A stretch of DNA of 64,000 bases from Rhizobiaceae bacterium (GTDB lineage Bacteria; Pseudomonadota; Alphaproteobacteria; Rhizobiales; Rhizobiaceae). Both the position numbers and the translations under genes were made by a program. The stretch's first letter is position 1, and each line of letters opens with the position of its first letter. Positions 47,631 through 59,490 of this stretch are shown here, one piece after another. The notes under the pieces were generated by a model. The model searched no databases. It was not told the origin of the DNA and was given only the letters and a program-made list of their open reading frames with translations. Location: the NCBI GenBank assembly GCA_017643495.1, contig JAEPNK010000001.1, positions 911,623 to 975,622 of the forward strand, written 5' to 3'.

Positions 47631-47773
47631 TCTTTGCTCTCCACTTGGCAGAAATCATTCTTTTGCCGGGACACAGCGTACCGGTTCCGTTCTGTTCCGC
47701 CCTGTAAATTGTTTGCCGCATCAGGTTGGCAGCCTCTTTCTGTGTGCCGCCGGAAATAAGCTAATCAGGCGCG

Positions 47774-47872
47774 GACTCTGCGCGCAAGGGTACTTGATTG
47801 GCTAAGAATCAATTTTTCCAAATATCCCCAGGATTGGGAATCGAATTTCAAATTGTTGTGGAAAGCCGAATC
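47774..47872. promoter_or_regulatory. Cluster of four GANTC (CcrM-type) sites
   Basis: GACTC at 47774, GAATC at 47806, 47838 and 47868: steps of 32, 32 and 30 bases, close to three helical turns each. The first sits in the loop of a hairpin. The region is 144 to 240 bases upstream of gcrA, whose product depends on methylated GANTC. Confidence 0.65.
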
Positions 47873-47959
47873 GGTATTGCCTGAAGCCTGTGGATTTTTT
47901 CGTATCGGCACAATTTCGCCATTTCCGCTTTCACAGGCCCGTGCGGAAGCGCTAAATTC

Positions 47960-47988
47960 TTGACCTGCGGCGACCTGCAATCTATTCT
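47960..47988 (+). promoter_or_regulatory. argD: Sigma70-like promoter of argD
   Basis: TTGACC (47960-47965), 17 bases, TATTCT (47983-47988). Transcription would begin near 47995, about 100 bases before argD and just before the leader terminator. Confidence 0.55.
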
Positions 47989-48093: not shown

Positions 48094-49284
48094 ATGGGAA
48101 AAGAAAATCACACCTTTGATGTGTATGCCCCGCCGCCACTGGAGTTTGTGCGCGGTGAAGGTGCCCGTCTGTACGATGGCAAAGGTGACGAATATCTGGA
48201 TTGCACTGCGGGCATCGCGGTAAACTCGCTTGGCCACGGGCATCCTCATCTGGTAGAGGCATTGAAAGGTGCAGCAGACGGAATCTGGCATCTTTCAAAC
48301 CTGTTTGCCATTCCCGGTCAGGCAAGCCTGGCAGGAAGGCTGTGTGAAAACACATTTGCTGATCGCGTCTTTTTTACCAATTCGGGTGCAGAAGCCATTG
48401 AATGTGCAATCAAGGCCGCCAGGCGGTATCATTATGCCAAGGGCAATCCCGAGCGCACAAAAATTATCACATTCGAAGGTGCATTTCACGGTCGAACGAT
48501 TGCAACCATAGCAGCCGGCGGCAATCCGAAATACACGGAAGGTTTCGGACCCCGGTCACCCGGATTTGTGCATTTGCCTCTCGGCGATGATGATGCATTG
48601 AAGGCAGCAATTGACGATGAGACGGCGGCCATTCTTGTTGAGCCGATCCAGGGCGAGGGTGGAATCCGGGAAGTCGCCATGCATGACCTCAACCGGTATC
48701 GTGAACTGTGTGATGAACACGGCATCCTGCTTGTATTTGATGAAATCCAGACCGGTGTTGCACGGACAGGGCGCCTGTTTGCCCATCAATGGTCTGATAT
48801 AGAGCCGGATATCATGGCCATAGCCAAGGGTATTGGGGCAGGTTTTCCCGTGGGCGCTTGTCTTGCCACCGAAGATGCAGCTTCCGGCATGGTGCTTGGT
48901 ACCCACGGCTCGACATTTGGTGGCAATCCTTTGGCAATGGCTGTTGGAAATGCGGTTTTGGATGTGGTGCTCGAAGACGGGTTCATGGACTCAGTCAATG
49001 AAAAAGCCCGCTCATTCCGCCAGATACTGGCAGAGATGGTCGATACATTCCCGGATTTGCTGGCGGATGTCCGGGGCAAGGGATTGCTGATGGGCATGCA
49101 GTGCAAGGTGCCCAACACGGATGTCGTCAACAAGATGCGTGATCACAAATTGCTGGTCGTGGGCGGAGGCAGCAATGTCATCCGTATATTGCCTCCCCTG
49201 GTGATCTCGGATGACGAGATTGCGATGGTAAAAGAGCGCATGATGTCCGCTCTGGGTGAATTGCAGGCCGAAAAAGATAAATAG
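48094..49284 (+). CDS. argD: Acetylornithine aminotransferase ArgD
   Basis: Class III PLP aminotransferase, 396 residues, acting in arginine synthesis (N-acetylglutamate semialdehyde to N-acetylornithine). Landmarks: [73 protein letters not shown] Lys245 in [13 protein letters not shown], and [20 protein letters not shown]. The in-frame stop TGA at 48046 leaves ATG 48094 (AAAGG upstream) as the only good start. A stronger ribosome site, AGGAG, instead serves an out-of-frame ATG at 48059. Next gene argF, 10 bases on. Confidence 0.94.
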
Positions 49285-59291: not shown

Positions 59292-59321
59292 CCCGGCTTT
59301 GCTGTTTCCCGCAAAATTCGG

Positions 59322-59374
59322 CCCTTTAGCGACTTTTTTTACGTGGCTGCAAGCCGACCGGCCAAATCACCACG
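59322..59374 (-). ncRNA. SAM-II (metA/SAM_alpha) riboswitch aptamer
   Basis: On the minus strand the leader contains the conserved SAM-II blocks in order: CGTGGTGATTTGGCCGG, TCGGCTTGCAGCCACG, an A-rich linker, then GTCGCTAAAGGG. The GGTGATTTG and CTTGCAGCCACG core and the 3' GCTAAA, which forms the pseudoknot, match the class as known from rhizobial metA and metZ leaders. Binding of S-adenosylmethionine should lower metZ expression through the downstream terminator and ribosome site. Confidence 0.92.
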
Positions 59375-59490
59375 AATGCCGGGATGGTAACCCCGCACAT
59401 TTGTGTGGTTTAATCCAACTGGCCCTAGGCGTCAATCGAACAAGCGGTTATTTGTAGGCCGCAACCCGTTTGAAAGCCGAAAAGACCAAT

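Follow-up and report, generated by a model that had tools for sequence, protein, structure and literature searches.

The four GANTC sites that lie between gcrA and the divergent argD in this Rhizobiaceae genome probably make up a control region through which the gcrA promoter responds to CcrM (rough probability 0.7); the promoter would be gated by methylation and timed by replication. This reading draws on our sequence comparisons and on the analogous promoter of Agrobacterium tumefaciens. The array belongs to the predicted promoter of gcrA and not to argD, and the genome encodes its own CcrM (an N6_N4_Mtase plus RAMA protein, on contig C10). According to passages of PMC11514494, the 250 bp preceding gcrA in A. 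tumefaciens contain six GANTC, methylation lowers the activity of the promoter both in its own host and in Escherichia coli, and gcrA mRNA drops when ccrM is over-expressed; that test was made on another arrangement, with six sites, and the window lacks one of the core sites, at -42. The replication-timed methylation switch that the initial annotation had proposed at gcrA is thus well supported, by promoter location, by the encoded CcrM and by the repression reported for A. tumefaciens. A switch of this kind has been described in that species (PMC11514494, in the passages cited), and the array described here is a variant of it. What is new is the dissection of the ages of the sites, the way DnaA-box-like elements are interleaved with the array, the loss of the -42 site in the window genome, and a box private to gcrA.

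The array and the predicted gcrA promoter

A recount in the window (the whole 64-kb stretch of DNA that was analysed) gave exactly the four sites and the spacing of 32, 32 and 30 bases described by the initial annotation (Table 1). They occupy -242 to -148 from the gcrA start, which makes them a cluster within the 250 bp upstream of the gene, and fall in and just upstream of a conserved core promoter. The window as a whole strongly avoids GANTC (74 occurrences against 279 expected from dinucleotide shuffles); the density of the motif is 1.16 per kb there and 1.49 per kb in 400 kb sampled from the genome. The density at gcrA, for which a check had been proposed, is not ordinary, the motif being enriched several-fold at this place. 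The same is seen in 80 named relatives, all of whose loci were counted: on average 4.36 GANTC precede gcrA within 250 bp, versus about 1.02 per kb elsewhere in the loci, and four of the 80 have none in that interval.

Rarity alone is modest evidence, since the own genome (3.74 Mb) holds seven places with at least four GANTC in at most 99 bp, the gcrA array being one, when, at the sampled density, 2.3 starts of such a four-site group would be expected per genome under a Poisson model, and 0.04 in a stretch of 64 kb. The seven were collated by hand from three gapped triple-site searches that cover all placements of four sites in 99 bp; at least two of the other places look coding, and the others include a stretch between rpsT and rhodanese-dnaA and one upstream of ybjN. 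One such cluster could arise by chance, and it is the location at gcrA and the conservation that carry the weight. A crude coding/intergenic map gave P 0.018 for at least four GANTC in 463 bp, a rough value only; we did not rely on this map because chance ORFs of at least 90 aa count there as coding, and its rules probably let a chance ORF of 173 aa take the place of gcrA, and another, of 99 aa, overlaps part of the array.

The cluster upstream of ybjN (C11:1075674-1075873; L014, L261) is denser than the gcrA array, with nine GANTC in 200 bp. It adjoins a BMFP-domain gene and an ORF that we take to be Lgt-like. Of this locus 12 genus copies were fetched and 11 examined, and in each of these 11 the 250 bp upstream of ybjN contain three to nine GANTC. 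A 152-bp stretch lying between rpsT and the rhodanese-dnaA side contains seven GANTC (C10:752309-752460; L005, L262), so that the flanks of dnaA and of gcrA both hold clusters.

Table 1. Genes, GANTC sites and predicted elements of the gcrA-argD region (window coordinates; promoter positions are approximate).
Feature	Coordinates	Strand	Promoter position	Remarks
gcrA, 161 aa	47145..47630	-		ORF; Pfam PF07750 (GcrA), E 8e-56
Predicted gcrA transcription start	47751	-		About -121 from ATG, +/- few bases; inferred from S. meliloti start
Predicted gcrA -10, TAGCTT	47758..47763	-		From alignment with relatives
GANTC site 5 (GACTC; GAGTC on gcrA strand)	47774..47778		between -35 and -10, about -29	Present in window
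Predicted gcrA -35, TTGCGC	47782..47787	-		Alignment of cores
Lost GANTC site 4	47788..47792	-		TACCC in window; GACTC in most relatives
GANTC site 3 (GAATC; GATTC on gcrA strand)	47806..47810		about -61	Present in window
Box B, TGGGGATAT; other-strand weak DnaA-box match ATATCCCCA (7/9)	47822..47830	-		Order form TTGGGGAAAACC
GANTC site 2 (GAATC)	47838..47842		about -93	Present in window; genus-conserved
Box A, CTTTCCACA, DnaA-box-like (7/9)	47857..47865	-		Alignment and box scoring
GANTC site 1 (GAATC)	47868..47872		about -123	Present in window; genus-conserved
AAATCCACA, DnaA-box-like (7/9)	47889..47897	-		Stronger in several congeners
argD sigma70-like promoter, TTGACC-N17-TATTCT, without GANTC	47960..47988	+		Predicted from sequence
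argD, divergent neighbour	48094..49284	+		Class-III aminotransferase PF00202, E 3.7e-113

The promoter was placed with the help of Sinorhizobium meliloti, whose gcrA transcription start is given at -122 from the AUG in passages of PMC4414408; in three Sinorhizobium/Ensifer loci this position is 36-37 bases past the first T of a conserved TTG. From this distance we infer that TTG is the -35 element, that the GANTC pair of the core lies at about -42 and -29, and that a third site lies at about -61. The order-wide core, as aligned in most loci of the first set, has GACTC directly before the TTG, then five bases, then GAGTC, and at least 9 of the 13 fixed letters of GACTCTTG-N5-GAGTC were found in 103 of its 120 upstream regions. 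The 17 regions below 9/13, that of the window among them, were omitted from the column counts along with three duplicates, and four locus pairs with identical upstream sequence were retained in simple counts. Among the 100 distinct aligned cores, each letter of TTG is kept in 99, the GANTC directly before the -35 in 91 and the GANTC at the spacer column in 89. The core of the window has the spacer site and lacks the one adjoining the -35: its genome has lost the most conserved GANTC of the order, which stands directly before TTG in nine of the 12 genus genomes. At the spacer site, GA-TC stays and the base in the middle differs between loci (G 84, T 3, C 2 in 89 cores; G 36, T 9, C 2 in new loci), which suggests, from sequence variation, that methylation rather than the plain sequence is under selection there.

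In Rhizobium/Ensifer loci (e.g. L020 and L048) the gcrA -10, at about -135 from the ATG, reads TAGGTTAA; it includes GGTTAA, which is complementary to TTAACC, the CtrA half-site. This element is absent from the window. An extra GANTC in the gcrA leader, at about -30 to -40 from the ATG, occurs in L126-L131, L133 and many rhizobia and is missing in the window. A search for an RNA element in the gcrA-argD region gave no Rfam match there; the only match in the window and three other loci was a SAM riboswitch elsewhere, which in the window is a SAM_alpha riboswitch at 59306-59383, minus strand (73.5 bits).

Ages of the sites

The comparison of sequences gives the sites different ages, -29 and -42 being the most widespread, -61 mainly a site of the family, and -93 and -123 belonging to the clade. 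The initial annotation had raised the possibility that the spacing is not conserved in close relatives, which fails here: all four sites with a spacing of 30/32/31-32 are kept in 10 of the 12 genus genomes, the remaining two lacking site 2 in one case and site 5 in the other. Outside the genus, the full array was found among 188 loci in four distinct ones (L017, L018, L100 and L102) and in L016, which has the same sequence as the genus locus L134, and in none of the 39 class loci outside the order. The -61 partner, which precedes the spacer site by 31 or 32 bp, occurs in 84/120 first-set loci, 12/20 further loci of the family and 1/60 loci of other families.

The core reaches further. GACTCTTG was found in 20/60 order genomes outside the family and 13/20 further genomes of the family, and CTTG-N5-GANTC in 28/60 and 16/20, respectively, and in 2/39 class genomes outside the order, a set in which neither GACTCTTG nor the box TGGGGAWA described below occurs (0/39 each). 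Over the 250 bp before gcrA, GANTC averages 2.87 sites in the 60 other-family genomes, 4.05 in the 20 further ones of the family and 1.08 in the 39 outside the order. The 60 were fetched from 158 order genomes with a match, one or two per family with two exceptions, and one of their upstream regions is only 132 bases long. For the class set, 38 of 114 genomes had no gcrA match, 40 of the 76 matching ones were fetched, and exclusion of one order member left 39. Sites have been gained and lost between genera upstream of gcrA.

DnaA-box-like elements between the sites

The intervals between the GANTC sites hold conserved elements of their own. Nearly all genus members keep CTTTCCACA between sites 1 and 2 and TGGGGATA between sites 2 and 3, and several have an additional box further upstream. 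The second box takes the form TTGGGGAAAACC in much of the order, and TGGGGAWA was found on the sense strand in 98/120 loci of the first set, 35/60 of other families and 15/20 further ones of the family. Compared with the DnaA box consensus TTATCCACA, as quoted in a passage of PMC8203912, the matches in the window reach only 7/9, those of relatives up to 9/9, with a perfect box in L103. Over 120 loci, nine-mers with at most two mismatches to a DnaA box number 1.48 per locus, where a Markov null gives 0.41, a 3.6-fold enrichment. These conserved elements are the likeliest sites for an activator, with DnaA as its putative identity.

The exact 14-mer AGTTGGGGAAAACC has one copy in each of 25 of the 61 family genomes and none in the other 36, and coordinate comparison places all 25 copies directly upstream of gcrA. 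This distribution speaks for the common form of box B being an element private to gcrA, whether or not DnaA binds it, and its binder may therefore be something other than DnaA. We recognised no published description of the order-wide core or of box B, including its form TTGGGGAAAACC, in the literature examined, a search conducted largely without full texts and with subscription papers mostly outside it.

Proposed methylation control of gcrA and other readings

Since the promoter of the window has the -35/spacer plan of its rhizobial relatives, a promoter that is off when fully methylated is the best prediction. CcrM would methylate the GANTC sites late in the cell cycle, and full methylation at the spacer site, perhaps also at the upstream ones, would hinder the sigma70 RNA polymerase or an activator; gcrA would then be low in G1 while the sites are fully methylated. 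Passage of the fork would leave them hemimethylated and switch gcrA on for S phase, up to the renewed methylation of the sites by CcrM. The location of the sites, their conservation and the CcrM gene are our own observations, to which this scheme adds a predicted start site, a predicted timing and a candidate role of DnaA.

The position of the sites might invite a different regulator, a different gene or no regulation at all. GcrA binds methylated GANTC (PMC3667746, in part), GANTC is 4.4- to 4.7-fold enriched in GcrA ChIP peaks of Brucella abortus (PMC6813329, in part), and, on the strand of gcrA, the sequences of site 1 (CGATTCG) and site 3 (TGATTCT) fit the extended motif YGAKTCK quoted in PMC8725594, all of which is consistent with GcrA binding its own methylated sites and, with sigma70, activating or repressing gcrA. 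However, the spacer site of the window (AGAGTCC) does not match this motif, methylation affects the A. tumefaciens promoter even in E. coli, a host without GcrA or other alphaproteobacterial regulators (PMC11514494, in part), and no mention of autoregulation was found in the text of PMC3667746, PMC7987155 and PMC11514494 that was examined; we consider such autoregulation unlikely. It is quite improbable that the GANTC are incidental, conserved -35/-10 and transcription-factor sequences merely happening to contain them: TTG equals the GANTC sites in conservation and box B comes close, and sites come and go between genera, but the spacer site changes its middle base while keeping GA-TC, GANTC is several-fold enriched at gcrA in a window that otherwise avoids it, and methylation has a published functional effect in A. 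tumefaciens (PMC11514494, in part). Control of argD, or of both divergent genes, is very improbable even though the sites stand in the intergenic region that both genes share, at 222-320 bases from the start of argD, because argD has its own sigma70-like promoter downstream of the array and the conserved motifs are strand-specific and at a near-constant distance from the gcrA start.

A phased device, in which a spacing of three turns would allow a single protein complex to read the sites together from one face of the DNA, is hardly credible. At 10.5 bp per turn the sites fall at 0, 3.05, 6.10 and 8.95 turns, on one face as the initial annotation had stated, the 30/32/31-32 spacing recurs in most of the genus and in the four distinct loci outside it, and the distances over all loci of the first set suggested 10.5-bp phasing in an exploratory analysis. 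Yet common descent is enough to explain a constant spacing within the genus, nine of the 12 congeners have an extra site adjoining the -35 and off that face, and the order-wide 13-bp GANTC pair is off phase. In an independent set from other families, the 39 uncollapsed distances gave p 0.027, with a period of 9.5 doing better (p 0.006), and the collapsed distances (21 classes) no phasing (p 0.29); control pentamers showed no consistent phasing, GTNAC giving p 0.03 in the old set. Same-face spacing thus stands within the clade and is not established as a general rule, phasing as a general requirement not being upheld on the collapsed distances. A composite sensor of fork passage, in which CcrM sites about three turns apart and DnaA-box-like elements would be read together on one DNA face, with the gcrA-private box TTGGGGAAAACC of most of the order also binding a novel regulator, is a speculative, unlikely extension of the sequence pattern.

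The reading of the array as a CcrM-sensitive control region extends a result from a single species, A. tumefaciens, across the order by dating the GANTC sites at gcrA, and yields precise predictions, of a few bases each, on the coupling of replication to gcrA. The common form of the conserved box occurs once per genome among exact carriers, and its binder should be findable. CcrM sites had been predicted upstream of cell-cycle genes including gcrA (PMC2877005, in part), and PMC8116508 counts GANTC upstream of ctrA, its passages giving no such count that we found for gcrA.

Among known systems, the A. tumefaciens gcrA promoter PG resembles the array most in that GANTC is over-represented in the 250 bp (six sites there, in passages of PMC11514494, and four in the window), CcrM is encoded, and the lineage is a related one whose relatives have the same core promoter. 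The arrangement differs, the sites of the rhizobial relatives lying at about -61, -51, -42 and -29 and those of the window at -123, -93, -61 and -29, without -42. In Caulobacter, DnaA activates gcrA (PMC3193534 and PMC8203912, in part), which fits the candidate boxes upstream of the same regulator in the window; one DnaA box is reported there, whereas the window has three weak matches, two of them genus-conserved, interleaved with GANTC, and the GACTCTTG and box B of the order are absent from the 39 class genomes outside it. The ctrA P1 promoter of Caulobacter is likewise that of a cell-cycle regulator turned on by hemimethylation after fork passage (PMC8116508, in part). It is activated via GcrA at an upstream GANTC, whereas the window has several sites and its closest tested relative is repressed by full methylation.
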